A DNA stretch of 64,000 nucleotides, from contig JAKLGA010000010.1 of assembly GCA_022710975.1 (NCBI GenBank), forward strand, positions 1 through 64,000, given 5' to 3'. The notes beneath the pieces were generated by a model. It was not told where the DNA came from. It did no database searches and saw nothing but the letters and a program-made list of their open reading frames with translations. Source of the DNA: Myxococcota bacterium (lineage in GTDB: Bacteria; Myxococcota; B64-G9). How positions within the stretch are numbered: position 1 is the first letter of the stretch; the number at the start of each line of letters is the position of its first letter. A program made the translations under genes and the position numbers. Below are positions 11,246-33,739 of the stretch, in pieces.

Positions 11246-11382
11246 GCCGCGTCTCCTCTGATCGGAGGCATTGTCGCGGATGCGCCCGGCGTCCGCAAGC
11301 GCAGCGGCCGTCAGACCGGTCCCGCGCGCGGCGTCTGGATCCTCGAGGGCAGAAAGGCCCACGCCCTCGCGGGAGGTGCCCG
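11246..11382. promoter_or_regulatory. Divergent control region between cas6 and the primase-cas2-cas1 operon
   Basis: The 137-bp gap must hold promoters for both directions. It is very GC-rich, with GGGAGGTG (11372-11379) as the plus-strand ribosome binding site and AGAGGAGA for cas6. A weak GG-N10-GC arrangement can be found on the minus strand, but its other bases do not match the sigma-54 consensus, so no promoter is assigned. Confidence 0.35.
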
Positions 11383-13588: not shown

Positions 13589-14716
13589 GTGCGCCGGCTG
13601 TACGTGGTGGAGCCGGGCGCCCGGGTGACCCGCGAGGGCGAGCGCATCCGGGTGCTGGTCGGCGAGCAGGAGGTGGAGAGCGTGCGCGCGGACGAGCTTG
13701 CTCAGGTGGTGGTGGTGGGCTCGGCGGGGCTGAGCACGCCTGCCATGCAGGCGCTGCTCAAGGCCGGAGCCGAGGTGGTGCTCTTGACCCGCAACGGCCG
13801 CTTCCTCGGGAGGCTGTGCTCGGGCCTGAGCCCCAGCGCCCGAGCCCGCCACTGCCAGTACGCCCGGCTTCAGGACCCGACCGCCCGTCTGGGCTTCGCC
13901 AGGCGGGTGGTGGCGGGCAAGATCGCCAACCAGGTGCGGCTCCTCCGTCGTCACCAGAGCAGGCTCAAGGACCCCTCGGTGGCGAGCGCGCTGCCGCGCA
14001 TGCGCCAGGCCGGCGCGGACGCGCTCACCGCGGCCGACGTGGACATCCTGCGTGGGCTCGAGGGCGCGGCCGCCGCGGCCTACTTCGGGGTATTCGGCCG
14101 GCTGCTCAAGGCCGAGGGGGTGGCCTTCGAGCGCCGGGTGCGCCGCCCGCCGCCCGATCCGGTCAACATCCTGCTCTCCTTCGGCTACACGCTGCTCGGC
14201 AACCTGGTGCACGCGGCCGTGGAGACGGCCGGGCTCGATCCCTACCTGGGCGCGCTGCACGAGCTCCGCGCGGGTCGGCCGAGCTTGGTGCTCGACCTCC
14301 TCGAGGAGCTCCGCCCGGTGGTGGTGGACACGGCCGTGCTGCGGGCGTTCAACACCCGCGCCATGCTGCCCGGGGACTTCGTCTCCATCACCGACGATGC
14401 CCCGGGGGTGGAGGACGCCTGGGAGCGGGAGGCCTGGGAGGCGCGCGAGGCCGCTGACGGTGCCGGAGATGCCAGCGCCGGAGAGGCCGGGCAAGACGGC
14501 GCGGAGCCGGCCGGCCCGCGGCGCTCGATGGTGCTCACCCGGGTCGGGGTGAAGAAGTGGATCGCCTGCTACGAGCGGCGGCTCGAGGAGCAGGCCTGGT
14601 ACGAGCCGCGTGGCCAGCGGCTATCCCTGCGCGAGGTGGCCCAGGCGCAGGCGTATCGCCTGGCCCGGCACTTCGAGGGGCAGGAGGAGTACACGGCCTT
14701 CGAGTCGCCGGAGTGA
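13589..14716 (+). CDS. cas1: Cas1 integrase, 375 residues
   Basis: The catalytic triad is intact: E158 in GLEGAAAAAYF, H224 in ALHELRAGRPSL and E239 in DLLEELRP (with D236). The N-terminal beta domain (RRLYVVEPGARV...) and the C-terminal helical domain have normal order. A Gly/Ala/Glu-rich insert of about 45 residues (270-312) separates the catalytic part from the final helices. The start is GTG 13589 after GAGAGGAGG; no ATG fits. Cas1 with Cas2 integrates new spacers at the leader end, which lies directly downstream. No cas4 gene is present in the locus. Confidence 0.97.
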   Translation: MRRLYVVEPGARVTREGERIRVLVGEQEVESVRADELAQVVVVGSAGLSTPAMQALLKAGAEVVLLTRNGRFLGRLCSGLSPSARARHCQYARLQDPTARLGFARRVVAGKIANQVRLLRRHQSRLKDPSVASALPRMRQAGADALTAADVDILRGLEGAAAAAYFGVFGRLLKAEGVAFERRVRRPPPDPVNILLSFGYTLLGNLVHAAVETAGLDPYLGALHELRAGRPSLVLDLLEELRPVVVDTAVLRAFNTRAMLPGDFVSITDDAPGVEDAWEREAWEAREAADGAGDASAGEAGQDGAEPAGPRRSMVLTRVGVKKWIACYERRLEEQAWYEPRGQRLSLREVAQAQAYRLARHFEGQEEYTAFESPE

Positions 14717-14980: not shown

Positions 14981-15090
14981 ACAAGGTCCTGCGAGAACGA
15001 AGGGATGTGTACGAAACACATCCACCAGACAAGGGAGGGGGGTGCGTCATATCGCGCCCCCGAAACCCTTACAGAACAAGGTCCTGCGAG
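14981..15090 (+). repeat. Two anti-repeats in the leader
   Basis: ACAAGGTCCTGCGAG is present exactly at 14981-14995 and again at 15076-15090. Its core AAGGTCCTGCGA is the perfect reverse complement of TCGCAGGACCTT, positions 2-13 of the CRISPR repeat. The second copy lies 7 bp before the first repeat and could form a 12-bp hairpin with it. A transcript of the leader could pair with the 5' part of every repeat. Class 1 systems do not use tracrRNA, so the role is unclear. Confidence 0.85.
15003..15023 (+). other. Hairpin directly after the first anti-repeat
   Basis: GGATGTGT (15003-15010) and ACACATCC (15016-15023) form a perfect 8-bp stem with a 5-nt loop, 7 bp after the first anti-repeat. 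It could be an RNA structure in a leader transcript or a protein-binding site. No T-run follows. Confidence 0.6.
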
Positions 15091-15097
15091 GTGGTGC

Positions 15098-18000
15098 GTC
15101 GCAGGACCTTCCCCGAGATGAAGGGGATTGAAACCATGTCGGGCCCGTACAGAGCGCACTCGAGCGCCCCGAGCTGTCGCAGGACCTTCCCCGAGATGAA
15201 GGGGATTGAAACGCCTTCTGCTTGGCCGTCTTGCCGACCACGGTCGTGCCGCGTCGCAGGACCTTCCCCGAGATGAAGGGGATTGAAACTCGATGAGCTG
15301 CGCGCACGAACCCAAGGTCCAGTAGTGTCGCAGGACCTTCCCCGAGATGAAGGGGATTGAAACCAGGTGGCGCTGAACTGGAGGTTGCTGTGCTCGGCTC
15401 TCGTCGCAGGACCTTCCCCGAGATGAAGGGGATTGAAACAATTCATCGCCGGCCAGAATCCGGTGGATAGCGATGACGCTAGTCGCAGGACCTTCCCCGA
15501 GATGAAGGGGATTGAAACGCGGATCGTGTCTGCCATGCGGTCCCTGGAACGCAGCTCGGTCGCAGGACCTTCCCCGAGATGAAGGGGATTGAAACTTGCC
15601 ATGACGCTCATATCGCACCTCCTGCGATTGGTCGCAGGACCTTCCCCGAGATGAAGGGGATTGAAACACAGCTTTCCGCCGCCTGCGCAAGATTGCCATG
15701 ACACTCGTCGCAGGACCTTCCCCGAGATGAAGGGGATTGAAACGCTTCCTTTCTGCAATAGATACCGTTCGGTGTGTCCTTGTCGCAGGACCTTCCCCGA
15801 GATGAAGGGGATTGAAACGGGCCGCACACGTCAGCCGCGAGTTTGTCGAGGTCGCTGTCGCAGGACCTTCCCCGAGATGAAGGGGATTGAAACTCCATTC
15901 CCGCGGCATGTCCTGGGCCTCGCCCAGGTCCACGAGTCGCAGGACCTTCCCCGAGATGAAGGGGATTGAAACGGCTGGTACGGCGGCTGCTGAGGCTGCC
16001 CCGGCGCCGTGTCGCAGGACCTTCCCCGAGATGAAGGGGATTGAAACGTCCCTGGCCTGGATCGCGTCGTACTCAGCCCGGTCGCAGGACCTTCCCCGAG
16101 ATGAAGGGGATTGAAACTCTGCAGCCGCCGCCTTTGCCTTGAGGATCAGCCACATCGTCGCAGGACCTTCCCCGAGATGAAGGGGATTGAAACCGCTGTG
16201 GCTGGCGTATCGGTCGCTCTGGATCTTGTCGCAGGACCTTCCCCGAGATGAAGGGGATTGAAACGCAGCACGGCCCCGAACACGATCACGCGCCGCGTCC
16301 CGTCGCAGGACCTTCCCCGAGATGAAGGGGATTGAAACTCATCCCTTCCTTGTTCGAACGTTCAGATCGTGGTCTCCAGGTCGCAGGACCTTCCCCGAGA
16401 TGAAGGGGATTGAAACTGAGCACACGCAGGGACATCAGGTGCCGGATAGCAGCCGCGTCGCAGGACCTTCCCCGAGATGAAGGGGATTGAAACTTCGCCC
16501 CGCTCAGCTTCGGCGGCCTCGTGCCGCACGGGAGTCGCAGGACCTTCCCCGAGATGAAGGGGATTGAAACCAGGCTTGCCCGGGCACTCTCGTTTCCAAG
16601 CCTACCCGTCGCAGGACCTTCCCCGAGATGAAGGGGATTGAAACGGGCGAGCCTCGTCCTGCCGGAGCGACGCCATCAGCGTCGCAGGACCTTCCCCGAG
16701 ATGAAGGGGATTGAAACGGGATCACGATCTGCACGGCCTCCGTGCGGTCCGGGCGGTCGCAGGACCTTCCCCGAGATGAAGGGGATTGAAACTCCTCGAC
16801 CAGCTCATGGAAGCGGCCCAGGTCCAGGCGCGTCGCAGGACCTTCCCCGAGATGAAGGGGATTGAAACAACTTGCGCTCGCTGATGCGCTGGTCCGCGGT
16901 CGGCCGGCGCGTCGCAGGACCTTCCCCGAGATGAAGGGGATTGAAACTTCAATCCAACATTCAAGGCACGGGCTTTATGAAGTCGCAGGACCTTCCCCGA
17001 GATGAAGGGGATTGAAACAACACGTCCTTGTGGAACAGGTCGCCCATCGAGCAGACGAGTCGCAGGACCTTCCCCGAGATGAAGGGGATTGAAACCGCAG
17101 CGGCTGGTCGAGCACCTCCTCGCGGAAGGTGACGTCGCAGGACCTTCCCCGAGATGAAGGGGATTGAAACTTCACCTTGTTGGCGAGCAGAGCGAACAAG
17201 GGCTCCCGTCGCAGGACCTTCCCCGAGATGAAGGGGATTGAAACGTCGAGAAGTTGCGGACGTGGAGGCTGCAGGTCGCAGGACCTTCCCCGAGATGAAG
17301 GGGATTGAAACCTCGAGATCGTCCAGCCGCGCCTCGTCCAGGTGCGGGTCGTCGCAGGACCTTCCCCGAGATGAAGGGGATTGAAACAACACGTCCTTGT
17401 GGAACAGGTCGCCCATCGAGCAGACGAGTCGCAGGACCTTCCCCGAGATGAAGGGGATTGAAACGTTGCCCTTGTGGTAGGCCAGATCGCAGTTGTCCAG
17501 GGGTCGCAGGACCTTCCCCGAGATGAAGGGGATTGAAACTATTCCTTTCTTCGAGCGTTGGGATCAGATCGTGGTCGCAGGACCTTCCCCGAGATGAAGG
17601 GGATTGAAACTCAGTCCCGAGGGTCCGAGCCCGTCACGGGCTCATCGCACGTCGCAGGACCTTCCCCGAGATGAAGGGGATTGAAACTCATCAACATCGT
17701 TTCGCCGCCTGCGAAGGATTGCCATGGTCGCAGGACCTTCCCCGAGATGAAGGGGATTGAAACTGAGACACCGTTTGGTGTGTCTTTGCCCCAGAAGGCC
17801 GCGTCGCAGGACCTTCCCCGAGATGAAGGGGATTGAAACCACGGGCACCCACGTGGCGAACAGTCGTTTGCACGCCGTCGCAGGACCTTCCCCGAGATGA
17901 AGGGGATTGAAACCTGAACCCGAACTCCGTCGTCTTGGCGTAGGCCCGGATCACAGTCGCAGGACCTTCCCCGAGATGAAGGGGATTGAAACATTGGCTG

Positions 18001-21000
18001 AGTGGTCCCCGCCTCCACGAAGACCTCCCAACCGTCGCAGGACCTTCCCCGAGATGAAGGGGATTGAAACTCTTTGCTTTTGATTTCCATGGTTCAACCC
18101 CTGTTTTCGTCGCAGGACCTTCCCCGAGATGAAGGGGATTGAAACAACTCGGCGCACAACTTGCCGTCAAAACAGCGTTCCAGAGTCGCAGGACCTTCCC
18201 CGAGATGAAGGGGATTGAAACGCCGTTTCCGTTCTCGCTCATGACTTGATCTCCGTCGCAGGACCTTCCCCGAGATGAAGGGGATTGAAACGACGCAGTT
18301 CCTTGCGGGCATCTTCGGCCGCTATGTCGCAGGACCTTCCCCGAGATGAAGGGGATTGAAACCACGAAGTTCACGTGGAACTTGCGAACCTCTGCGACCA
18401 GAGTCGCAGGACCTTCCCCGAGATGAAGGGGATTGAAACCCCGAGAGCCCTACGACGTCGACCTACTTACGTGTCGCAGGACCTTCCCCGAGATGAAGGG
18501 GATTGAAACTTGTGCCAGTAGTTCTGCCGGGCGAAGAACCCCTCGGTCGCAGGACCTTCCCCGAGATGAAGGGGATTGAAACATCTTCTTTGCAGTTGGC
18601 GAGCCGACACTCGAGAGGCTTTGTCGCAGGACCTTCCCCGAGATGAAGGGGATTGAAACTTTTTAGGCCGCGTCCCTGGCATCGCGGTGGTGCTGTCGCA
18701 GGACCTTCCCCGAGATGAAGGGGATTGAAACGTCTTGGGCGGCGCGGAGAGGACCGCGAGCTCGGTCGCAGGACCTTCCCCGAGATGAAGGGGATTGAAA
18801 CCAGGATCTTCGCCCTCGTGGGAAGGGCAAACTCCGTCGCAGGACCTTCCCCGAGATGAAGGGGATTGAAACTCTTACACTATGGTCGCCCTACCGGCCT
18901 GCTATTGTCGCAGGACCTTCCCCGAGATGAAAGGGATTGAAACGTCATGGCTTTGCCCCTATGTGGAATTACTTCCACCGTCGCAGGACCTTCCCCGAGA
19001 TGAAGGGGATTGAAACTAGAAAACTAGCTTCGATGGTTCGAAACGTTGGGAAAGTCGCAGGACCTTCCCCGAGATGAAGGGGATTGAAACCCAATGGCTT
19101 GCTGTAGTCCTGATGGTGCGCCTGAATCGGTCGCAGGACCTTCCCCGAGATGAAGGGGATTGAAACGCATCAGCCTCCGCCTTGAGCGCCGCGAGTCTCG
19201 CCCGTCGCAGGACCTTCCCCGAGATGAAGGGGATTGAAACTTCGCTGCACAGCCTCGCCTCTTCTTCCTCGCCATCGTCGCAGGACCTTCCCCGAGATGA
19301 AGGGGATTGAAACATGTAGTCGTGCAGGGCCAGGGCCCGCTGGATCTTCGCCGCGTCGCAGGACCTTCCCCGAGATGAAGGGGATTGAAACCTTGTCTCC
19401 CATGATGGGACGATCGGCTGCGCACGGCGAGGTCGCAGGACCTTCCCCGAGATGAAGGGGATTGAAACTCCGCTGGAGCCGCGCCACCTCGGCCACCGTC
19501 TCCCGGGCCGGTCGCAGGACCTTCCCCGAGATGAAGGGGATTGAAACAGCTGATCTGCATCAGCTCCTCGGGATCCACGCCGTCGGTCGCAGGACCTTCC
19601 CCGAGATGAAGGGGATTGAAACTTCTTGCCCTGCCTCAGGTAGGTGGGCGTGTCGAGTCGCAGGACCTTCCCCGAGATGAAGGGGATTGAAACGATGACC
19701 TCTCCGGTGTTGATCAGCTGGCCATCCTTGTCGCAGGACCTTCCCCGAGATGAAGGGGATTGAAACGGGTCGGTGGCTTCACAGTTTGCCCACAAACCGC
19801 CGTGGTCGCAGGACCTTCCCCGAGATGAAGGGGATTGAAACAACGAAGTCGGGGTCGATGCGCATGTTCATGGCGTGTTGTCGCAGGACCTTCCCCGAGA
19901 TGAAGGGGATTGAAACACCGTGGTTCGGACGTTTCGTATTGGGCCTTCACGTCCCTGTCGCAGGACCTTCCCCGAGATGAAGGGGATTGAAACGCGGGAG
20001 CGCGTCCGGGTCCGGACGATTCATGCCGGGACCGGTCGCAGGACCTTCCCCGAGATGAAGGGGATTGAAACACCTGGATGTCCACGCCAGGATCTGGCAT
20101 GTCCTTGATCGTCGCAGGACCTTCCCCGAGATGAAGGGGATTGAAACTATCCTCGTCCACCCGCTCTAACCAAGCGGGCCGGAGTCGCAGGACCTTCCCC
20201 GAGATGAAGGGGATTGAAACCACGAGCCCCATCTTACCGGCCATGGCGAAGGGCGGTCGCAGGACCTTCCCCGAGATGAAGGGGATTGAAACGGGGCGAG
20301 ATCGCCCGCGAGCGCGTCGATATCCTCGGTCGCAGGACCTTCCCCGAGATGAAGGGGATTGAAACGAACGCCGCCGGCCGGAAGAAGGTCTCCACACCGG
20401 CCTGTCGCAGGACCTTCCCCGAGATGAAGGGGATTGAAACGGGGACATCGATGGGATCGGGGCCACCGGCACCACCGTCTGTCGCAGGACCTTCCCCGAG
20501 ATGAAGGGGATTGAAACGCATGTGCCGTTGATGACACGGGTGTCAACACGATGGTCGCAGGACCTTCCCCGAGATGAAGGGGATTGAAACCTCGGCGGCT
20601 CGCTCCCGCACGCCAGCCACAGCAGCGTCGCAGGACCTTCCCCGAGATGAAGGGGATTGAAACTCGATGTTCTTCATGGCATCAGCGATAGCAGGATGTC
20701 GCAGGACCTTCCCCGAGATGAAGGGGATTGAAACTGTTCGCTGGCATCGGAGCACCTCCTACCGGAACCACCGGGTCGCAGGACCTTCCCCGAGATGAAG
20801 GGGATTGAAACAGCCAGCGGGCTCGGTCTTGAGGACCTTGAGGACGTGGTCGCAGGACCTTCCCCGAGATGAAGGGGATTGAAACTCTTGTTCTTCTTCT
20901 GGAGCTTCTTGAGGTCTTCCTGTCGCAGGACCTTCCCCGAGATGAAGGGGATTGAAACACCTCCTCTACACGGTCACGCCGTCCGGGTATCGCGTGGCGG

Positions 21001-21780
21001 TCGCAGGACCTTCCCCGAGATGAAGGGGATTGAAACGATGTTCTCCCTGGCATTGGCCACCAGGCGCTGGCGTCGCAGGACCTTCCCCGAGATGAAGGGG
21101 ATTGAAACGCCGTGCGGCCTCGGGCCTCCGGGTGCTGCTCGAGCGTCGCAGGACCTTCCCCGAGATGAAGGGGATTGAAACGCCGTGCGGCCTCGGGCCT
21201 CCGGGTGCTGCTCGAGCGTCGCAGGACCTTCCCCGAGATGAAGGGGATTGAAACTTCCATCCAACGTCCGTGCGGGGTCCATTCCCGCGGCGTCGCAGGA
21301 CCTTCCCCGAGATGAAGGGGATTGAAACGACCCGGACCCGGACCCGGACCCGGACCCGGACCCGTACCCGGACCCGTACCCGGGTCGCAGGACCTTCCCC
21401 GAGATGAAGGGGATTGAAACTTGGCGGCCCAGGCCGGGTCCTCGCGGTGCTTCTTGGCCGTCGCAGGACCTTCCCCGAGATGAAGGAGATTGAAACGCCT
21501 TGCGCAGGTCGTCCATCCACCTGTTCAGGGCGTCGCAGGACCTTCCCCGAGATGAAGGGGATTGAAACGCAGCGCGCAGCGGTAGGCGTGGCAGGCGGTG
21601 GCCGTCTCGTCGCAGGACCTTCCCCGAGATGAAGGGGATTGAAACCAGCCTGGGTCACAAGCCGTAGCATGCAGCGTTGAGTCGCAGGACCTTCCCCGAG
21701 ATGAAGGGGATTGAAACAGCGCGGCGCAGCTCGTCGGGTGCGAGAGCATCCAGCGGAGTCGCAGGACCTTCCCCGAGATG
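15098..21780 (+). CRISPR. Long CRISPR array, 37-bp repeat, 90 repeats by hand count
   Basis: The repeat is GTCGCAGGACCTTCCCCGA followed by GATGAAGGGGATTGAAAC. A TCCCC/GGGGA stem with loop GAGATGAA precedes the 3' tail ATTGAAAC, the usual crRNA 5' handle after Cas6 cleavage. Repeats begin at 15098, 15176, 15253 and so on to 21758; I count 90, the last broken after GATG at 21780. Spacers are mostly 34-42 nt (mean period about 75). Sequence variants occur at 18907 (AAAGGG) and 21460 (AAGGAG). Two spacers are exact duplicates of others (17019-17058 and 17388-17427; 21109-21144 and 21182-21217), and one of 55 nt is low-complexity (21329-21383). Transcription should run from the leader at the left. 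Apparent ORFs on both strands are repeat artefacts. Confidence 0.99.
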
Positions 21781-21896
21781 ACCCTTGGGCTGCAGCGGGT
21801 AGTTTGCGAGTGCGAGTCCGAGGTGCATGACCGTCCCGTGCTAGACGCACGCCCAAGGACGGCAGAGGCATTGGGTAAAGGCGAGGGTGTCTGCCG
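21781..21896. repeat. Element X, copy 1 (116 bp), inside the last repeat
   Basis: The final repeat is intact up to GATG (21780). It is then interrupted by 116 bp and resumes as AGGGGATT at 21897. The insert begins ACCCTTGGGCT and ends with a CGGCAGA ... TCTGCCG hairpin. ACCCTTGGGC can also pair with GCCCAAGG in the middle. A second copy of the same length lies at 22023-22138. The outer parts are nearly identical between copies, while about 50 bp in the middle differ. It could be a small palindrome-bearing mobile element or a structured RNA. Confidence 0.75.
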
Positions 21897-21924
21897 AGGG
21901 GATTTACCGCAGGACCTTCCCCGA

Positions 21925-22022
21925 CAGCGAAGCCGATGCGCAACTTGCATGGGCTGAGCAGTGGTCACGCCAGGTGGTTGGAGCGTGTCGTGGTAGCGCC
22001 TACCCCGTAGCGTGACCAGATG
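21925..22022. repeat. Element Y, copy 1, in a repeat loop
   Basis: The repeat 5' part GCAGGACCTTCCCCGA (21909-21924) is followed by about 98 bp beginning CAGCGAAGCCGATGCG and containing GAGCAGTGGTCACGC. The insert ends GCGTGACCAGATG, directly before element X copy 2. TGGTCACGC and GCGTGACCA form a perfect 9-bp stem. The same layout with different but complementary stem bases appears in copies 2 and 3. Confidence 0.78.
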
Positions 22023-22138
22023 ACCCTTGGGCTACTGCGAGCTGCATGCGTGTTTGAGCTTGTGTTTGTCTGCCGTCCCGCACCGGACGCACGCCCAAGG
22101 ACGGCAGAGGCATTGGGTAAGGGCCAGGGTGTCTGCCG
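22023..22138. repeat. Element X, copy 2 (116 bp)
   Basis: The same length and outer sequences as copy 1 (ACCCTTGGGCT at the left; GACGCACGCCCAAGGACGG and CGGCAGA ... TCTGCCG at the right), with a different middle. It again follows GATG and precedes AGGGGATTG (22139), so both copies sit at the same point of the repeat, in its hairpin loop. This argues for site-specific insertion or for duplication of the whole unit; the differing middles argue that any duplication is old. Confidence 0.75.
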
Positions 22139-22230
22139 AGGGGATTGACCGCAGGACCTTCCCCGACAGCGAAGCTGTGACGGAAGAACCCTCGAGCAGA
22201 GCAGTGGTCATGCCCCTTGAACAGTCGCAT

Positions 22231-24234
22231 TAGCCCAAGTTCCGCAGAATCGAGGGTCGGATCTAGCCTTTTCAATGGGTTAGGTCGTCTGGTTGGCACT
22301 ACATTTCGGGCCCTGCGAGGGGGATCTTGAGCCTCTCCGGCAGCCGCAGGCCAAGTCTGTCGAGGAGGGCTGCTTGGCTGCGATCGGGCCTCACCACGCA
22401 TCGTAGCCTCAGCTCTCGTCTCGGGCTCTCAGCCGTGGGCAGTACGACGTCGGTGCTCTGGATCGTCCGCAGTTCGTCCAGCACCGTGCGGGGGCTGTTG
22501 CCCAGCCCGGCCTTCACTTGCCACTGCTCCAGCGTCTTCCACATCACATAGGCGAGGAAGCAGACCAGGATGTGCGCCTGCACCCGGCTCGCCTTCTGGT
22601 GCCACACCGGACGCAGCGACAGCTCGCTTTTCTGGATTCGAAACGCCGCCTCCGCTTCGGTCAGCTGGATGTACGTCCGCCATAGCTCCTCGGGCGTCCA
22701 CACCGTCACGTTGCTCCGCAGCACGTAGCAGCCCTCGCTGCACCTCGACCAGTCGTCCCACTCCGGGCGCACCGTCCACTTCAGCCGAAAGCCCGCAGGC
22801 AGGGAGGGCTCATCCTCCAGCTCGATGGCGTAGCGGCCGGCTGCGCGAGTATTACGCTCGCGCAGCCGGCCGATCTGTTCCCAGACCTCGTCCCGGCCAA
22901 TGGGTTGCTTCGACCGCTCGATGCGCCTTTCCAGCGACTGCAGGCCCGTCTCCATGTGCTCGATGAACCGCCGGTGGATAGCCTCTTCCTTCTGCTGGCG
23001 CTCCCGCGAGCGACACAGGATGAAAACCTCCTGGCCCTCGGGCCCCGCGCAGAGCTTCACCTCCACGCCGTCCCGCACCTCCCGCCAGTCCTTCTTCTCG
23101 ATGAGTTGCTCCCGGTAGCGCTTCATCTCCACCTTCGGCGTCCCGATCAGATACCGCCGTCCCGTCCGCTGCAGCCAGTCCACGTTCTCCTTGCTGGTCA
23201 TGCCCCGGTCCATCACCCAGATCCGCTGTGCCAGCCCGAAGCGCTGCTCCATCGTCTCCACGATCTCCTCGACCGTGGTCACGTCCACTCGGTTGCCGCG
23301 GAATACCTCGTAGCCCAGCGGGATCCCTTCACGGGTCACCACCAGCGCGATGCACACCTGCTTGCAGTCAGGCCGATGATCCCGGCTGTGCCCCCGCGCA
23401 GCCTGTTCGTTCTTCTCCGCCAGGCCCTCGAAGTACGTGCTGGTCACGTCGTACAGCAGCAGGTCGTAGTCCAGCGCAAACAGCTCCCCGAGCCGCTTCT
23501 TTAGGTGCTGCTCCAGCCTCGCCTTGTGCGGCAGCAGATGGTCCAGCGCGCGATAGAGCCGGTCGTCGTTCACCTTCTCCGTGGCGAGTCCGAGGATGTC
23601 CTCCAGCGCCGTCCGCCGGTACCAGTTCTCCGCGATGTACAGCTCACTCGACGGTTCGCACAGCCTGCCGACGCAGAGCACCGCGGCCAAAGTGGCCCAT
23701 GGCGCAGTCTCCTTGCCTTCGGGCTCGAGCTTCTCAATCAGCCGATCCAGCTCGAGCGCCTGCCACAGCCGCCAACCGAGCCACACGTCCCCGAAGGCCC
23801 TCGAGCGCTCCAGCCGCACCTGGTCGAGGCGCACGGCCACGCTCTGCTCGCTCGGCTCTTCCTCGAAGAACTCCCTCTGTTCACCGCGACCGGTGATGCG
23901 CCTCGCCCAGCGCTTGGCACGCGCACGCCCCGCGGCATCGAGCTCCCCGAGCTGCGCGACGGTCTGCTGCTCTACCTTCTTGCCCCGGCGAACGGAACGG
24001 ACCAGACGCCAGTAGGTGTGGGCCTTGCCGTTCTTGCGGACCGTGGTGTGGCGCAGGTACACGCGGAGCGTTCCTCCGCCCATGGTATCCCGCATCGGAC
24101 CCGACATCCGCAAGGGGGTAGGTTGGCACTACACGCGCTTTTCGGAGGGTCGGATCGTTAATACTCAAGGGGTTACCCGGCGCGGACCCCCCGAAAATAC
24201 TGATCAGCTACCCTCAACTGCGGAAGTCAGGTTA
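22231..24234 (-). mobile_element. IS1634-like insertion sequence, about 2.0 kb
   Basis: Imperfect terminal inverted repeats are visible: TAGCCCAAGTTCCGCAG at 22231-22247 and CTGCGGAAGTCAGGTTA at 24218-24234, both next to CCCTC/GAGGG. They enclose one transposase gene (22299-24113). No target-site duplication is clear. The short direct repeat GGTTGGCACTACA just outside both ends of the gene (22291-22303, 24121-24133) belongs to the IS. The element interrupts Y copy 2 at the leader-distal end of the CRISPR array. Confidence 0.8.
22299..24113 (-). CDS. IS1634-family DDE transposase, about 604 residues
   Basis: The frame is intact. Catalytic-type residues are visible: Asp in [12 protein letters not shown], Asp in [10 protein letters not shown] and Glu in [20 protein letters not shown], the Y-x2-R-x3-E-x6-K-like region of IS4/IS1634 transposases. 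The N-terminus ([22 protein letters not shown]) is typical of IS1634 family members. The start is uncertain: the longest reading uses TTG at 24113, ATG codons follow at 24107 and 24083, and none has a clear ribosome binding site. The full-length frame suggests that the IS may still be active or arrived recently. Confidence 0.95.
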
Positions 24235-24266
24235 GGCCTATGAACGGTCTGCCACATGACCATCAG

Positions 24267-24506
24267 AAGGGGATTGAAACATGTTGCCCCAGGTGGTCAG
24301 GATGATCTCGGCGACCCTGACTCGCAGGACCTTCCCCGACCGCGAGGCTGTGGTGGAAGAAACCTCGAGTCGAGCAGTGGTATCGCCCTGTCGACGGTGA
24401 CGTTCGGGCATGGTCCCGGTTCGGCGCGATACCATCAGAAGGGGATTGAAACTGGCAGATGCCTTGCGTCTCCCGCTTGTCCTCTGGGGTCGCAGGACCT
24501 TCCCCG
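24267..24506 (+). CRISPR. Degenerate CRISPR remnant with two spacers between split repeats
   Basis: The repeat 3' half AAGGGGATTGAAAC at 24267-24280 is followed by a 40-41-nt spacer (24281-24321) and a repeat 5' half TCGCAGGACCTTCCCCGA (24322-24339). Element Y copy 3 (24340-24438) comes next, then a second 3' half (24439-24452), a 36-nt spacer (24453-24488) and a last 5' half (24489-24506). Spacer lengths match the main array, so these are genuine array units whose repeats carry loop inserts. Together with 21758-22166 they are the oldest, leader-distal part of the array, now separated by the IS. Confidence 0.8.
24340..24438. repeat. Element Y, copy 3 (99 bp), complete
   Basis: This copy lies between CCCCGA and AAGGGG of one repeat. 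It begins CCGCGAGGCTGTGGTGGAAG, contains TGGTATCGC and ends GCGATACCATCAG; the two segments form a perfect 9-bp stem. Compared with copies 1 and 2 the stem bases differ on both sides in a compensating way (C-G to A-T, A-T to T-A). A second stem, CGAGG/CCTCG, occurs in the 5' part. Confidence 0.8.
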
Positions 24507-24552
24507 GCAGCGAGGCCGATGCGTAACTTGCATGGGCTGAGCAGTGGTCACA
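24507..24552. repeat. Element Y, copy 4, truncated
   Basis: Forty-six bases after the last repeat 5' half match Y copy 1 (AGGCCGATGCG, ACTTGCATGGGCTGAGCAG, TGGTCAC). The sequence then changes to unrelated DNA upstream of the DUF429 gene, and no partner stem or repeat 3' half follows. This is the present end of the array. Confidence 0.7.
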
Positions 24553-24635
24553 CTTGGAGCAACAATGATGTCCAGAGAAGGCAGCGGCGTCCGATGTCGG
24601 TCGATTTGGCTCGAGGAAGGAGGTCCGGCGCAGAA

Positions 24636-25436
24636 ATGATTGCCAGATCGTTGCGGGTAGAACGCTGCATCGGCATCGACTGGTCCGGCGCCAAGACCAC
24701 CTCGCAGCAGAGGAGGAAGATCTGGGTAGCCGAGGCCGATGTGGAAACGAAGGAGATCGTGAGGCTCGAGAGCAGGATGACCAGGGAAGAGGTCGTCGAT
24801 GCACTCCTTGAGAGGACCGACGAGCCGATCGTCGTGGGATTCGATTTCGCTTTTTCCGCTCCCGCGTGGTGGTTGGCAGAGTTGGGGTGCGCAGCGGCCA
24901 GTGGGCTATGGGAGAGGAGCGAAAGAGAGGCAGCGTCCTGGCTGGAGCCCACGGCTCCGTTCTGGGCGAAGAAGGGCACCATGAATCGGGCGCTCGGAGG
25001 CAGGCCCTGCCGCAGGCAGTGTGAGCCTGACAGCGCAGAATCCGTGTTCAAACTGGTAGGCCCCAGACAGGTGGGCCGCGGGAGCATTCGCGGCTGGCCA
25101 CTCCTCAGGAAGATGCAGGAAAACGGTTTCTCGATCTGGCCGTTCGACGCTGTTCACCTTCCAATGGTGATTGAGATCTTTCCAAGGGCGCTGATGGGAC
25201 TGAGTGTCAAGAAGACGGACAAGGAATCCCGCTGCCAGTACCTGGCAGGGCCCGATTTCAAGATGCCACGCGCGATCCGGGATTCGGCAGTGTCCACCGA
25301 TGATGCATTCGATGCCACTGTCTCGGCGATGGCATTGGCGAGGCATGTCTCCGATCTCATCGACAATCGGTTTACCCCGAGGGAGATCGACAGGGTCGAG
25401 GGAAAGATCTGGGTTCCGGACCCGAAAATGTCCTGA
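24636..25436 (+). CDS. DUF429-family protein, RNase H-like fold, 266 residues
   Basis: RCIGIDWSGAK (10-20), VVGFDFAFSAP (67-77), EIFPRALMG and the late acidic motif STDDAFDATVSAMALA match DUF429, a family predicted to have an RNase H-like nuclease fold with conserved acidic residues. ATG 24636 has GGAAGGAGGT about 12 nt upstream; an in-frame ATG at 24594 would add 14 residues. Its G+C is lower than that of its neighbours. It starts 83 bp after the truncated end of the CRISPR remnant and reads in the array direction. A link to CRISPR is possible by position only. Confidence 0.82.
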   Translation: MIARSLRVERCIGIDWSGAKTTSQQRRKIWVAEADVETKEIVRLESRMTREEVVDALLERTDEPIVVGFDFAFSAPAWWLAELGCAAASGLWERSEREAASWLEPTAPFWAKKGTMNRALGGRPCRRQCEPDSAESVFKLVGPRQVGRGSIRGWPLLRKMQENGFSIWPFDAVHLPMVIEIFPRALMGLSVKKTDKESRCQYLAGPDFKMPRAIRDSAVSTDDAFDATVSAMALARHVSDLIDNRFTPREIDRVEGKIWVPDPKMS

Positions 25437-27200: not shown

Positions 27201-27608
27201 GTGGCTGCGATGCTCGTGCTGTTCAACCACACGCTGACCGAGGAGCAGGCTGAGGACGCCCGGGCGAGCCTGGGGGTGGACCGATTCCTGGACCCGCCCG
27301 AGGCGCTGCGGGTGTTGTGGGCGCAGGTCCCGGCCGAGGTGGAGGATCTCCGCGGACCGCTCGCACCGGTCCGGCGCTGGCTCGAGGCCACCGGGAGGGC
27401 AGGGAACTTCCTGCTCGTGGAGGGCGACTTCGGGGCCACCTGGTTGGTGGTCGGCTGGGCGCTCGAGCTAGGCCTGGTGCCGGTCCACGCCACCACCCGC
27501 CGCGAGGCGCGCGAGGAGCGCGGACCGGACGGGGCCGTGCACACGGAGCACGTATTCCGCCATGTCAGGTTCAGGAAGTTCCATTCTCTCGAAGGAGGAA
27601 AGCCATGA
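27201..27608 (+). CDS. csx20: Csx20-like CRISPR-associated protein, 135 residues
   Basis: The product begins MAAMLVLFNHTLTEEQAEDA and continues with LWAQVPAE, LLVEGDFGATWLVVGWA, GLVPVHATTRREAREE and TEHVFRHVRFRKF. This is the characteristic layout of the small Csx20 family found in type III loci, where GDFGATYL and ATTxRxA are conserved. The molecular role of Csx20 is poorly known; the fold is Rossmann-like. GTG 27201 follows GGGAGGAC; ATG 27210 is an alternative. Its stop overlaps the next start by ATGA, coupling it to the PD-(D/E)XK-like gene. Confidence 0.82.
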   Translation: MAAMLVLFNHTLTEEQAEDARASLGVDRFLDPPEALRVLWAQVPAEVEDLRGPLAPVRRWLEATGRAGNFLLVEGDFGATWLVVGWALELGLVPVHATTRREAREERGPDGAVHTEHVFRHVRFRKFHSLEGGKP

Positions 27609-28078: not shown

Positions 28079-28244
28079 GTTCCCCAGGCCCTGACACTTG
28101 GCCGAGTCAGATCCTGGTCGTTCTCGTCGTCTGCAGGTGGAGAATTCGGTTGCGTCTTGCCCTGGGCTCGATATCCTCCAGAAGCGAGCCGACAGCGATG
28201 AGGAGTGGGTCTTCGGGACGCGAGGTCCCATGGGAGGTGGTTCG

Positions 28245-29747
28245 ATGGCGCAGCGCTGGATCTACCGGTACGAGGTGAAGGGCATCCAGCCCTACATCCT
28301 GGCCACGGACAAGCTTCGCGAGATGCAGGGGGCGAGCAGCCTGATCGAGGCCATCGGGGAGCTGTTCGGGGAGGCGCGGAGCGCCTTCGGGCTCCAGGGC
28401 GCCCGGCTGCTCAGCATGCCCACCGCCGGCGGCGGGAGCCTGGAGGTCGAGGACGGACAGAGGTCTCGGATCGAGACGCTCATGTCCGCCTGGCCGCTCC
28501 TGGTCTCCAGGCACGCCCCCGGGCTCCAGGTCGTCCAGGCCATGGTGCCCCAGGGCGAAGGCGCCTGGGACGCGCTCCACGACGAGCTCCGCAGGGACCG
28601 CTCGCGGGTGGACCCCGAGCTGCCCGAGGCAGGACCGATGGTGCTCCGCGCCCCGCGCACCGGGCTGCCCGCATGCGGCCGGAAGGACACCTACGTCGAT
28701 CCGGCGGGCCTGCGGAAGCTCGAGGCCGCCGCGGAAGATCGGCTGGCGAAGCGCCTGGGGCGCGGGGGCTGGCTCGAGGACCTCGACAGGATCGGCCACC
28801 CCTACGTGGGCGTGGTCCACCTGGACGGGAACGACATGGGCCAGCACCTGCGACGCCTCGGGCACGGGGATCTGCTCGCCTTCTCCGAGGGGCTGGAGCG
28901 TGCCACCCTGGCGACAGTCCAGGCGGCTGTCGAGGAGACGCTCCGGGAACCCGGGGACAGCGTGACCCTGCCAGCCAGGCCCATCGTGGTGGGCGGCGAC
29001 GACGTGACCTTCATCGTGCGCGGTGACCTGGCCCTGCCCTTCGCCGCGGCCCTGCTGCGGGTCTTCGAGCGGCAGACCGGGGCCCTGTGCAAGGAGCTCC
29101 CGGCGCTCGGCTGCCAGCACCTGACCGCCGCGGCCGGCGTGGCCCTGGTGCACAAGCGCCACCCGTTCCATGCGGCCTACGACCTGGCCGAGGGCCTGTG
29201 CAAGCACGCCAAGCGCGCGCTGCGGGGCAAGGCAAGTCCCACCCCGTCGGGGCTGTCCTTCCACCGCCTGACCACCTCGCTGGCAGGCACCTTCGACGAC
29301 ATCCTGGACCAAGAGCTCCGCGCCGACTCCACGGAAGGCGGGAAGAGGCGCGCGGCAAGGGACAGGGAGGACCTGCTCACCCTGTGCCCCTACACCTTGC
29401 AACCCGTGGACGACCGGGCCACCCTCGAGTCCCTCGAGAGGCTCGTCGAGGCGGCCCGGGGCCTGCCGCGCGGCGCGCTGCGCGAGTGGGCCGGCCTCAT
29501 GCGCGAGAGCGGGGAGCGCGCCCGGCAGCACTTCCAGCGCATCCAGCAGGTCCAGAAGGACAAGGATCGCGAACGGTTCGCGGAGTTCGAGGCGGCGCTG
29601 GGCGCCATGGGCGCGGGAGGCGGCTGGAGGAAGGTGGGCGCCCCGGGGCCCGATGGCCGTGCTCCACAGGCCAGCCCCATCCCGGACGTGTTGACCTGGC
29701 AGAGCCTGGCGCCGGCCGGTTCGAAGACCGCGCGGAGGAACGCATGA
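28245..29747 (+). CDS. cas10: Cas10, short form without HD domain, GGDD intact, 500 residues
   Basis: The product starts directly with the first palm domain (IYRYEVKGIQPYILATDKLR, then GASSLIEAIG). The core cyclase/polymerase elements are VHLDGNDMG (191-199) and GGDD (250-253, in VVGGDDVTFIV). A helical C-terminal domain follows. No HD nuclease motif precedes the palm, so DNase activity is not expected, whereas the intact GGDD predicts cyclic oligoadenylate synthesis on target RNA binding. At 500 residues it is much shorter than most Cmr2/Csm1 proteins. ATG 28245 has GGGAGGTGG upstream; reading further upstream lacks such a site. The gene overlaps cas7 by ATGA. Confidence 0.95.
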   Translation: MAQRWIYRYEVKGIQPYILATDKLREMQGASSLIEAIGELFGEARSAFGLQGARLLSMPTAGGGSLEVEDGQRSRIETLMSAWPLLVSRHAPGLQVVQAMVPQGEGAWDALHDELRRDRSRVDPELPEAGPMVLRAPRTGLPACGRKDTYVDPAGLRKLEAAAEDRLAKRLGRGGWLEDLDRIGHPYVGVVHLDGNDMGQHLRRLGHGDLLAFSEGLERATLATVQAAVEETLREPGDSVTLPARPIVVGGDDVTFIVRGDLALPFAAALLRVFERQTGALCKELPALGCQHLTAAAGVALVHKRHPFHAAYDLAEGLCKHAKRALRGKASPTPSGLSFHRLTTSLAGTFDDILDQELRADSTEGGKRRAARDREDLLTLCPYTLQPVDDRATLESLERLVEAARGLPRGALREWAGLMRESGERARQHFQRIQQVQKDKDRERFAEFEAALGAMGAGGGWRKVGAPGPDGRAPQASPIPDVLTWQSLAPAGSKTARRNA

Positions 29748-30358
29748 ACGCCTTGCTGCGCATCGAGCTGGCCGGCTTCTGGCACGCGGGGAGCGGCCGG
29801 GGTGAGGGTCTGGGTGCGGATCTGCTCGTCACCCGCACCGCGGGCGGCCTGCCCTACCTGCCCGGTCGGACGCTCAAGGGACTGCTCAGGGAGGCCGTGC
29901 GTGAGGCCTGCGAGCTCGAGGTCCTGTCAGCAGGCAGGGTGGAGACCCTGTTCGGCGGGCGTGCGGAGCACGCGGCCGAGGAGGCCGCCGGCAAGGGCGA
30001 GGGTCGCTTCCAGGTGGTCGCGGGCACGCTCCGGGTGAGCGACGCGCGCCTGGGCGAGGACCCCGAGGCTCGGCAGGCCTGGGAGGCCTGGGCCGCGGAC
30101 GAGGAGAACCGTCCCACGCGCGACCAGCTCACCCGCATCCTGGCCTCCACCGCAATCGACGAGAAGGGTCTGGCCCGCGACAAGACCTTGCGCTGCATGG
30201 AGGTGGCCGTGCCCATGCGCCTGTTCGCCATCGTGGAGGGCGAGGAAGGCGCGGGGGACTGGCGCGCCGACCTGAAGGCTGCTCTCCCGCTGCTGCGCGG
30301 ATTGGGGCACAAGCGCAGCCGTGGCTTCGGCCGCTGCCGGGTCGAGCTGGTGGAGTGA
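29744..30358 (+). CDS. Cas7-like RAMP protein (Csm3-type), 204 residues
   Basis: A single RAMP domain: strand AGFWHAGSGRGEGLGADLLV, then GLPYLPGRTLKGLLREA (the PGxxLKGxLR motif), LFGG and, later, the loop STAIDEKGLARDKTLRCMEV and LGHKRSRGFGRCRVEL (the glycine-rich end). This is typical of Csm3/Cmr4-type backbone subunits that line the crRNA. A candidate catalytic Asp is D27 in GADLL, by analogy with the Csm3 loop; this is inferred. It overlaps cas10 by 4 bp and is followed after 13 bp by the Csx10-like gene. Confidence 0.92.
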   Translation: MNALLRIELAGFWHAGSGRGEGLGADLLVTRTAGGLPYLPGRTLKGLLREAVREACELEVLSAGRVETLFGGRAEHAAEEAAGKGEGRFQVVAGTLRVSDARLGEDPEARQAWEAWAADEENRPTRDQLTRILASTAIDEKGLARDKTLRCMEVAVPMRLFAIVEGEEGAGDWRADLKAALPLLRGLGHKRSRGFGRCRVELVE

Positions 30359-30371
30359 GGAGCGCACCGCC

Positions 30372-31871
30372 ATGAAGACGCTTGGATTCGAGATCGAGCT
30401 CCTGTCCGATGCCGTGCTGAGCGCCTCGGGCGCCACCGCGGGAGGGCACAGGTGCCTGGACTACCTCCCGGGCGCGGTGCTCCTCGGCGCTGCTGCGAAG
30501 CGGCTGTACGCCAGCCTGGGCGCAAAGGCCTTCGACGCCTTCCACTCCGGGAAGGTGCGCTTCCTGCCGGGATACCCCCTGGTCGAGGGCGGCATGGCCC
30601 TGCCCACGCCGCTCAGCTTCCACCGGGAGAAGGCCGGGCCGACGGCGGACCTCCTGAACCTGGCCCGGCCGGCCGCGAACCGCATGCTGCGGCCCGAGCT
30701 CCCGGGGAAGCCCTTCATCTCGCATCGTGGGGCCTTGCTCGTGCCAGGCAAGCGGGTGGCGCTCAAGACCGCCATCCAGGCGGGCAAGACCCAGGCCGCA
30801 GAGGGCCAGCTGTTCACGGTCGAGGCCCTCGCGGCCGGCGCCCGCTTCCTGGCCCACGTGCAACTCGACGAGGACCTGCCCGCGGAGCTGGGCCAGGCCA
30901 TCCACAAGGCATTGCTCGAGGGCAAGCTCGGGCTCGGCCGATCGCGTTCGGCCGAGTTCGGCTGGGCCGAGGCCCGCACGGCCACGCCCTGGGCGGCGCC
31001 CGCGCCTGCCCCGGTCGGCGACGGCAGGCAGATCCTCCTCTACTGCCTGACGGACCTCGCGCTCCTCGACCCGCGCACCGGCCAGCCGACGCTCGACCCG
31101 ACTGCGGCCTGCCTGGGCGTCGAGGGGCTGGAGCTCGATCGGGAGCACACCTTCCTGCGCATCCGACGCTACTCCCCTATCAACTCCAGGCGGCGGCGGC
31201 CCGACCTCGAGCACCAGGTCATCCTTCAGGGCAGCGTGCTGGGCTTCCGCGTCCTGGCGGGCGGGCCCGAGGCCAGGGAGCTGCAGCGGCGGCTCGAGGG
31301 CGGTGTGGGCGCCTACCGGCAGGAGGGCCTGGGCCAGCTCCTGGTGGACCCGCCCTTCCTGGCCGATCGGAAGCCGGTCTTCGCGGCGCGGCGCCCGGAG
31401 GAGGCCGCGACAGCCAGGCCCCCGCTCCTGGCGGACGAGCTCCTCGACTGGGCCCGGGCCGGCGGGCAGGCCGCCGCGCGGCGGGAGAAGGCCTTCGTGT
31501 TGGCTTCAGCCTGGAACCTGGAGATGAGGCCCTACCTGAAAGGACGTGGCCCCGGACGGGCCCAGTGGGGCATGCTGCGGGAGCGGGCCGCGCTGGCCAT
31601 GGACGGGAAGGCGCTGCTCGACGAGCTCTTCCGGACCAAGCCGGTGACCGAGGGCAAGCAGCAGCCGAAGGCAGGTCAGGACGCCGGGCTCCTCCGGCGC
31701 GGGGCGCGCGCGGAGGCATGGAAGGCGCGATACAAGGGGATCACCGCTGTGGACAGGCTGGAACAGCTGCTCAGGGATGAAGGCTGTCCGCTCGAGCTCT
31801 GCCGCGATGCGCTGATGCTGCTGGCCGCGCGCATGCAGAAGCTGGGCGCCGGGAAGGAGGAGCGGCGATGA
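30372..31871 (+). CDS. Csx10-like RAMP protein (Cas5 group), 499 residues
   Basis: The N-terminus has the RAMP pattern ELLSDAVLSASGATAGGHRC, then DYLPGAVLLGAAAKRLY, typical of Csx10 and other Cas5-group proteins of type III-D. A glycine-rich segment, KLGLGRSRSAEFGWAEA (about 190-206), closes the first RAMP unit. A long C-terminal part continues with a second, less clear unit and a basic helical end. Csx10 is thought to bind the crRNA 5' handle. ATG 30372 follows GAGGAGCG. It overlaps the next gene by ATGA. The call rests on motif layout and locus order and is less sure than that of its neighbours. Confidence 0.82.
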   Translation: MKTLGFEIELLSDAVLSASGATAGGHRCLDYLPGAVLLGAAAKRLYASLGAKAFDAFHSGKVRFLPGYPLVEGGMALPTPLSFHREKAGPTADLLNLARPAANRMLRPELPGKPFISHRGALLVPGKRVALKTAIQAGKTQAAEGQLFTVEALAAGARFLAHVQLDEDLPAELGQAIHKALLEGKLGLGRSRSAEFGWAEARTATPWAAPAPAPVGDGRQILLYCLTDLALLDPRTGQPTLDPTAACLGVEGLELDREHTFLRIRRYSPINSRRRRPDLEHQVILQGSVLGFRVLAGGPEARELQRRLEGGVGAYRQEGLGQLLVDPPFLADRKPVFAARRPEEAATARPPLLADELLDWARAGGQAAARREKAFVLASAWNLEMRPYLKGRGPGRAQWGMLRERAALAMDGKALLDELFRTKPVTEGKQQPKAGQDAGLLRRGARAEAWKARYKGITAVDRLEQLLRDEGCPLELCRDALMLLAARMQKLGAGKEERR

Positions 31872-33292
31872 GCGCACCCATCCGCGATCTGGCACGGGTG
31901 ACCGTGGAGCTCCAGAGCCCGCTGGCCATCGGCTCGGGCGCCTGGGACGATCTCCTCGACTCGCCCTTCGTGGTGGACGCGAACGACCTGCCCACCCTGC
32001 CCGGGACCTCCTTGGCGGGCGTGCTGCGCGCCGCCTGGCTCCAGGCCCGCGGCGAGGCCGAAGCCAAGAAGGTGTTCGGCCACCAGGAGCGCGATCAGGG
32101 CGAGGCCTCCAGGGTGTGGATCTCCTTCGGCGCCATCCACGGCCAGGACGACCGTCCCGTGGCGCCGCGCATGAGGCACGAGGACATCGAGAGGGACCCG
32201 TTGCTCAGGCTGGCGCGTGTGCCGCTGGTGCGGCAGCACGTGCGCATCGACCACCGCGGTGCGGCGGAAGGACACGGGCTGTTCGATCGCTCCATGGTCG
32301 CTGCGGGCCACCGCTTCACCTTCGAGCTCGAGGTCCGCGACGAGGATGAATCGATCCTGCGCGGGCTGCTCGGCCTGTTCGCGGACGGGAGCGTGGGCCT
32401 GGGGGCGCGGACCCGTTCCGGCCTGGGCGCGCTCCGGCTCGTCCAGGCGCTCGGGCGGCGCTTCGATCTCCGCAAGAAGGCGGATCGCGAAGCCTACGCC
32501 GAGGTGCCGGCCGATCTGCGGATCGACATGCCCAGGGGAGTTCTCGAGCCCTTGCAGCCCGGTGCGACCGGCCCCTCGACTGGCGAGCTGGTGGCCCGGC
32601 TGGAGCTCCGGCCCCGAGGCTTCTGGATGATCGGCGGCGGCCGGCCCGCGGAGGGCGCGGGCAAGGCCCCGGACATCAACCCATACCGCGAGGCACGGGT
32701 GGTGTGGGAGAAGGGCCAGGGCCGACTCGACCTGGACAGGCTGGAGCTCGTGGTGCCTGCCAGCGCCATCAAGGGTGCGCTCCGGCACCGCGCGGCCTTC
32801 CACCTCAACCGACTCCAGAGGCGTTTCGCGGACCAGGCCGGAGCGGCCCTGGAGCGATTCGACGGCACGAACCACCCCGACGTCCAGTCCCTCTTCGGCT
32901 GCATGCTCGAGCACGATGAAGGCCAGGCGGGCCGGGTGCGGGTGGGCGACTTGCGTTTCGCGAAGCAGCCGGACAGCCAGCGCATGACCCACGTGAGCCT
33001 CGATCGCTTCACCTGCGGTCCGGTGGATGGAGCGCTTTTCGAGGAGGAGGCGCTGTGGAAGGGCGGGCCCTGGCAGCTCGAGGTGCGCGTGCAGACCGGC
33101 GCCCTGGGCGCGGGCGACAAACGCGTTCCCGATGTGCCCCTCGAGGCCCGCGAGGCGCTCCGGCTGGCCCTCGAGGATCTGGTCGGCGGGCGGTTGCAGA
33201 TCGGGGCGGGGAGTGGCCGCGGGCACGGCTGGCTCGAAGGCAAGCTGGACTGGCAGGGACGCGAAGGCTGGCTGCGCGGGGAGGAGGGCTGA
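31868..33292 (+). CDS. Double Cas7-like RAMP protein, 474 residues
   Basis: Two Cas7-type units lie in tandem. The first (about 8-200) has LQSPLAIGSGAWDDLLDSP, LPGTSLAGVLRAAW and GLGARTRSGLGALRL. The second (about 235-465) has ARLELRPRGFWMIGGG, VVPASAIKGALRHRA, LFGCML and LQIGAGSGRGHGWLEG. Each shows a G-rich strand, a PGxSLxGxLR-like helix and a glycine-rich closing loop. Fused Cas7 subunits of this kind are known in type III-D variants (Cas7-2x). It would supply two consecutive backbone subunits along the crRNA. The 4-bp overlap with the Csx10-like gene implies coupled translation. Confidence 0.9.
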   Translation: MSAPIRDLARVTVELQSPLAIGSGAWDDLLDSPFVVDANDLPTLPGTSLAGVLRAAWLQARGEAEAKKVFGHQERDQGEASRVWISFGAIHGQDDRPVAPRMRHEDIERDPLLRLARVPLVRQHVRIDHRGAAEGHGLFDRSMVAAGHRFTFELEVRDEDESILRGLLGLFADGSVGLGARTRSGLGALRLVQALGRRFDLRKKADREAYAEVPADLRIDMPRGVLEPLQPGATGPSTGELVARLELRPRGFWMIGGGRPAEGAGKAPDINPYREARVVWEKGQGRLDLDRLELVVPASAIKGALRHRAAFHLNRLQRRFADQAGAALERFDGTNHPDVQSLFGCMLEHDEGQAGRVRVGDLRFAKQPDSQRMTHVSLDRFTCGPVDGALFEEEALWKGGPWQLEVRVQTGALGAGDKRVPDVPLEAREALRLALEDLVGGRLQIGAGSGRGHGWLEGKLDWQGREGWLRGEEG

Positions 33293-33294
33293 CC

Positions 33295-33729
33295 ATGGCG
33301 GCTTCCATGAACGAGCTCCGGAAGGTGCTCGAGGCGCGCGGCCTGCAGGCACCGGAGAGCTGCAAGCTGGTGGTGGAATCCGAGCGGGTCTCGGAGGCGG
33401 CCGCGGTCCGGCAGCGCCTCGAGGCCTTCGGAGGAGAGGGCTGGCTGTGCCTGACGGACAGGGTGGAGCGGCTCGCGAAGGGGGCAGCCCTGCCCCAGGG
33501 CACGCCGCTCTCGGCCGAGCTCTGCAAGGGAGCGGAGAGCCTGCACGTCCGCCAGACGTCAGGCGGCTGGATCCTGGCCCGGCTGCGGAGAGAGGCCGGG
33601 GACGAGCACCTCTGCTTCCGGGAGGAGCGGGTGGTGATCGGCGGCGGGAAGCTCGTGTACGAGGTCGCCTGGCAGCTCGAGAACGGGCGCTGGCGTCCCT
33701 GGTGCGGCCGCCTGGCCGGGCTCGAGTGA
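33295..33729 (+). CDS. Csx19-like small protein, 144 residues
   Basis: A small protein with a helical N-terminus, a middle part (GWLCLTDRVERLAKG) and a beta-rich C-terminal half (SLHVRQTSGGWILARLRRE, then CFREERVV, KLVYEVAWQLENGRWRP). The size and its position between the double Cas7 and the large RAMP match Csx19, a small subunit often found with the large TIGR03986-type RAMP in type III-D loci. The sequence evidence alone is modest, so no symbol is given. Alternatively it could be a small-subunit (Cas11-like) protein. The ATG lies 2 bp after the previous stop codon. Confidence 0.65.
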   Translation: MAASMNELRKVLEARGLQAPESCKLVVESERVSEAAAVRQRLEAFGGEGWLCLTDRVERLAKGAALPQGTPLSAELCKGAESLHVRQTSGGWILARLRREAGDEHLCFREERVVIGGGKLVYEVAWQLENGRWRPWCGRLAGLE

Positions 33730-33739
33730 GGTGGCGACA

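Follow-up and report, generated by a model that had tools for sequence, protein, structure and literature searches.

Organisation of the CRISPR locus

The window, i.e. the whole stretch of 64,000 nucleotides that was analysed, harbours a normal CRISPR array at positions 15098-21717 of the forward strand, which consists of 89 repeats of the sequence GTCGCAGGACCTTCCCCGAGATGAAGGGGATTGAAAC (87 of them exact) and of spacers that mostly measure 33-42 nt. On one side of this array are encoded Cas6 (10235-11362, reverse strand, with a match to PF10040 at 10259-10627), a CRISPR-associated primase-polymerase (CAPP) of type A1 with a TOTE AEP domain (11383-13281, forward strand) and Cas1 (13589-14716, forward strand). 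On the other side lie type III-D-like effector genes (28098-36073, forward strand), which comprise Cas10 (28098-29747), a Cas5/Csx10-like gene (30321-31871) and two Cas7 genes (31868-33292 and 33731-36073). A CARF-HEPN protein is likewise encoded on the effector side, and Csx20 occupies 27201-27608.

One spacer of the array (21327-21381, 55 nt) is a tandem repeat of GACCCG and exceeds every other spacer in length. Two spacers each occur twice, at 17019 and 17388 and at 21109 and 21182, one of these pairs being adjacent units. The leader contains two inverted copies of the first 12 bases of the repeat (AAGGTCCTGCGA), located at 14983-14994 and 15078-15089, where none would be expected by chance; the latter copy and the first repeat together form a 12-bp palindrome.

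Split repeats at the leader-distal end

As a rule, CRISPR repeats are regarded as uniform. Past the final normal spacer, at the leader-distal end, five further repeats on the forward strand are each split inside their hairpin loop, at the coordinates where the original prediction had placed them. The first (21758-21907) is split by an insert of 115 nt, X1 (21782-21896), which follows CCCCGAGATGA and precedes AGGGGATT. A single repeat at 21908-22149 holds two inserts, Y1 (21925-22018, 94 nt) and X2 (22024-22138, 115 nt). Next come a 5' half-repeat and the first part of Y2 (22150-22236, the insert starting at 22167), an IS1634-family insertion on the reverse strand (22237-24238, transposase 22299-24113), and the last part of Y2 (to 24262) with the 3' half-repeat TCAGAAGGGGATTGAAAC (24239-24280), followed by a spacer of 41 nt. 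The fourth repeat (24322-24452) is split by Y3 (24340-24434, 95 nt) and followed by a spacer of 36-37 nt, after which a 5' half-repeat with a truncated Y4 (24489-24551, Y4 from 24508) ends the series. Searches of Pfam, PADLOC and NCBIfam assigned no family to the gene directly after Y4 (24459-25436).

The IS1634-family element is present in a single copy in this genome and is flanked by a probable 7-bp target duplication with one mismatch (TTAGCCC/TTAGGCC). The complete Y copies measure 94, 94 and 95 nt rather than the 96-99 nt first reported, the value for Y2, rejoined across the element, assuming that these 7 bp are indeed its target duplication, as an alternative cut would make Y2 16 nt longer. 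Y4 has kept a first hairpin that is 95% identical to that of Y1, and its second hairpin is gone. The original prediction had overlooked the entire X family, the clean junctions described below, the covariation in the first Y hairpin and the nature of Y4. It had also taken the inserts to be past or present array units, which agrees with the normal spacers that follow the Y2 and Y3 repeats. The X1, Y1+X2 and Y2 repeats have no spacers between them; there, X1-Y1 and X2-Y2 recur with a period of 242 nt.

The junctions support the originally proposed location of the inserts within the loop of the repeat. Excision of X1 leaves GTCGCAGGACCTTCCCCGAGATGAAGGGGATTTAC, and the repeat that holds both Y1 and X2 becomes CGCAGGACCTTCCCCGAGATGAAGGGGATTGAC once the two are excised; each equals the core of the normal repeat base for base, and none of these three insertions is accompanied by a target-site duplication. 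The 3' junctions of the Y2 and Y3 repeats differ from the normal loop at three bases (GAT to TCA). There are two distinct insertion points in the 8-nt loop, and all inserts have the same orientation. Both stem arms and the 3' tag are kept in the Y2 and Y3 repeats (CCTTCCCCGA ... AAGGGGATTGAAAC); in the X1 and Y1+X2 repeats the tag is shortened, to ATTTAC and ATTGAC. While the repeat halves are nearly unchanged, the Y copies agree in only part of their sequence, and the two X copies differ across an inner stretch of about 39 nt that is enclosed by identical outer stems.

Fold and covariation of the Y inserts

The three inner stems quoted in the original prediction pair exactly as given (TGGTCACGC/GCGTGACCA, TGGTCATG/CATGACCA and TGGTATCGC/GCGATACCA). 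When the three Y copies were fitted to a preset structure of 15 pairs, 95.6% of the cells were paired and five pairs had changed on both sides; only one in 500 shuffles did as well on either value, and sliding the partner, as a control, lowered the pairing to 18-42%. An unconstrained consensus fold returned the same two hairpins together with a terminal one; of the 24 pairs in this fold, 10 had changed on both sides, so that both analyses uphold a structure kept through compensating changes.

The first hairpin has the form GC-GA-RGCY ... GA-GC, in which the GA positions are invariant and unpaired and are surrounded by interspersed two-sided changes, and in the second hairpin the changes cluster at three adjacent pairs. 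The linker GAGCAGTGGT is invariant. Beyond TGGT/ACCA an extra stem is found, which in each copy is matched by 1.3-1.7% of shuffled loops. The stability of the individual folds is not unusual relative to shuffles, and it is therefore covariation, not energy, that carries the structural case. With three G.T and two A.C wobble pairs, neither RNA strand is clearly favoured. Selection for structure, in RNA or in folded DNA, as originally proposed, is the likeliest reason for these changes, although three Y copies in one genome, a sample that limits all structural claims made here, fall short of proof.

Distribution of the inserts and related arrays

Within the genome, BLAST matched X and Y to this array only, and a covariance model recovered the four array copies followed by chance-level matches. 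Outside it, neither BLAST against 97 relatives nor the covariance model, applied with stricter filters to 195 genomes of the phylum and also to nine chosen genomes with a related Cas1 or neighbouring systems, revealed a convincing copy; the search for Y homologues by which the original prediction was to be checked thus returned nothing convincing beyond the array. Collections of plasmids, phages and viral contigs likewise held no convincing copy of X or Y, and no shared repeat was seen in the 195 genomes of the phylum. About 50 further Myxococcota arrays near Cas1, several of them cut by contig ends or masked, were surveyed by script and showed no such split repeats, nor are such repeats reported in the part of the literature that our search covered.

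Among the candidates discarded, a BLAST match in genome G036 spanned 21 nt of what seems to be coding sequence for a kinase-like protein, covariance-model matches in four genomes (G181, G197, G002 and G199) were weak, one of them (L167) overlapping long open frames and the other three being judged from their alignments, and a pattern match in a viral sequence (L168) lay in apparent phage coding sequence devoid of repeats. No Rfam 15 family reached the gathering score, and the weak matches below that threshold were implausible.

A comparable arrangement exists on a Myxococcales MAG contig (L092), which encodes a related Cas1 (48% identity) and a CAPP and carries a similar repeat. In six leader-distal units of its array, a hairpin of 15-17 nt interrupts the repeat cleanly (AAAGGG / CTGGGCTTGCCCAGC / GATTTGAAAC), the segments between the split units are themselves related, and the genome contains such units in this array only. 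As in the window, a hairpin has thus been cleanly inserted into leader-distal repeats and is found in the array only, but the insert is shorter, is positioned 3' of the stem and not within the loop, and has no sequence relationship to X and Y. The leader-distal end of this array (L092:9650-10340) is built of tandem units rich in hairpins. Their pseudo-spacers recur, and they contain the hairpin GCGACC-AGGAT-GGTCGC, one copy of which shows a compensating change (GCGGCC/GGCCGC). In a further related array (L086), the terminal repeats are degenerate and a spacer that bears a hairpin is repeated, and the end of another (L094) is plain. The pattern of hairpin inserts is therefore not unique, and hairpin-bearing leader-distal units recur without being universal.

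Origin of the inserts

The explanation that we tentatively prefer, although it falls short of being probable in its own right, is that X and Y are hairpin elements, short and non-coding, that form two families and were inserted cleanly, site-specifically and in one orientation into the loops of leader-distal repeats. Because the repeat halves are nearly identical and the inserts between them differ strongly, insertion into ready-made repeats fits better than an inherited long repeat; differing members of each family would accordingly have entered repeats that were already identical, and the palindrome of the repeat, extruded as a hairpin, could have been the target. Single-strand elements of the HUH/IS200-RAYT-like kind require a hairpin structure and leave no target duplication, and the clean junctions and hairpins observed here suggest a similar, single-strand manner of insertion. 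Mobility in trans would explain why structure was kept while the sequence drifted. Old leader-distal repeats appear to tolerate inserts, as the stem arms and the 3' tag ATTGAAAC survive in the Y2 and Y3 repeats.

Insertion is further favoured by the constant lengths (115 and 115 nt for X; 94, 94 and 95 nt for Y), the two separate points of entry into the loop with a common orientation, the two-sided changes in both Y hairpins, the presence of HUH genes in the genome and the parallel on the Myxococcales contig. Against it stand the altered GAT in the Y2 and Y3 repeats, where the junction is not perfectly clean, the dissimilarity of the two Y hairpins to each other and the lack of X- or Y-like sequence near the four RAYT loci examined. 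The absence of copies outside the array in this genome, and of convincing ones in the relatives, plasmids, phages and viral contigs searched, would moreover be odd for a mobile family.

Alternatively, the extended repeats could be transcribed with the pre-crRNA and their multi-hairpin domain act as RNA, which may involve binding of Cas6 or an effector, or the ending or protection of the transcript. The consensus fold with its compensating changes, the invariant GA/GA and linker, the retention of the repeat arms and 3' tag around Y2 and Y3, and a Cas6 encoded in the locus are all consistent with such a role. However, the inserts occur in this genome only, one Y is broken by the insertion sequence and another truncated, the wobble pairs do not clearly point to the crRNA strand, promoter or terminator patterns at the inserts do not rise above chance, and no Rfam family matches. 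We therefore regard a functional RNA as unlikely, and mobile hairpin elements, structure-constrained and site-specific in their entry into the loops, as the more likely origin. An RNA role would be the more interesting reading. Precise, structured, covarying inserts in the loop would imply one of two things: a hairpin element uses CRISPR repeats as its specific landing sites, or some arrays possess an additional RNA domain.

Non-functional palindrome dynamics, by which hairpin-prone sequence at the end of the array was duplicated and its arms mutually corrected by template switching, would render the compensating changes mutational rather than selected. The clustering of changes at three adjacent pairs of the second hairpin, the 242-nt period and the degenerate, hairpin-rich tandem units that end the related arrays L092 and L086 would fit such a process, which we nevertheless consider slightly less likely again than an RNA role, as it leaves unexplained the clean junctions, the near-constant length and the interspersed two-sided changes around the invariant unpaired GA/GA of the first hairpin. 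More doubtful still is a reading in which the hairpin loops of CRISPR repeats carry large RNA domains of conserved structure, i.e. multi-hairpin pre-crRNA modules with hypervariable loops of about spacer length that the III-D/CAPP system would use for a purpose other than ordinary guiding. Least probable of all is an array that began with long repeats and arrived at the present one by precise deletion, since copying during adaptation should yield nearly identical inserts whereas these differ strongly and the repeat halves do not, even though the extended repeats occupy the oldest end of the array and normal spacers come after those with Y2 and Y3.

Comparison with known systems

The inserts were compared with several known classes of sequence. 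Captured spacers were rejected as a source of the loops: at 39 nt these have the length of a spacer, but only short words are common to them and the spacers of the array, and captured fragments would not be expected to have paired ends. MITEs are likewise short non-coding inserts, yet no terminal inverted repeat spans both ends of X or Y and target duplications are lacking. Integron attC sites resemble the inserts in that they are variable palindromes of comparable size and conserved structure; however, neither a GTTRRRY (R') nor a RYYYAAC (R'') core is present in any copy.

Palindromic elements derived from IS200/IS605 and REP/RAYT elements are short and non-coding, with hairpins at both ends and no target duplication, and X and Y share this shortness, their non-coding nature, the hairpins and, at X1, Y1 and X2, the clean insertion. 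Unlike these elements, X and Y are not dispersed but confined to this array. Their insertion site is a CRISPR repeat, the two Y hairpins are unlike each other whereas the ends of IS200-type elements usually resemble each other, and the GTAG/GGAG tetranucleotide of REP sequences is found in some copies only and at inconsistent positions. The genome contains five HUH genes of the Y1_Tnp/RAYT type, and four of their loci (L172-L175) are paralogous, with common flanking DNA. No X- or Y-like sequence lies near the four loci examined, and nothing ties the Y1_Tnp genes to X or Y.

The locus as a whole has a known counterpart. Type III CRISPR arrays with a CAPP and Cas1 are known (Zabrady et al. 2021, PMC8211822), in a text where the terms hairpin, Myxococcota and type III-D are absent. 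With these systems the locus shares its gene neighbourhood, i.e. a CAPP of type A1, Cas1 and a III-D-like effector, as well as normal repeats with the typical hairpin and the ATTGAAAC tag.
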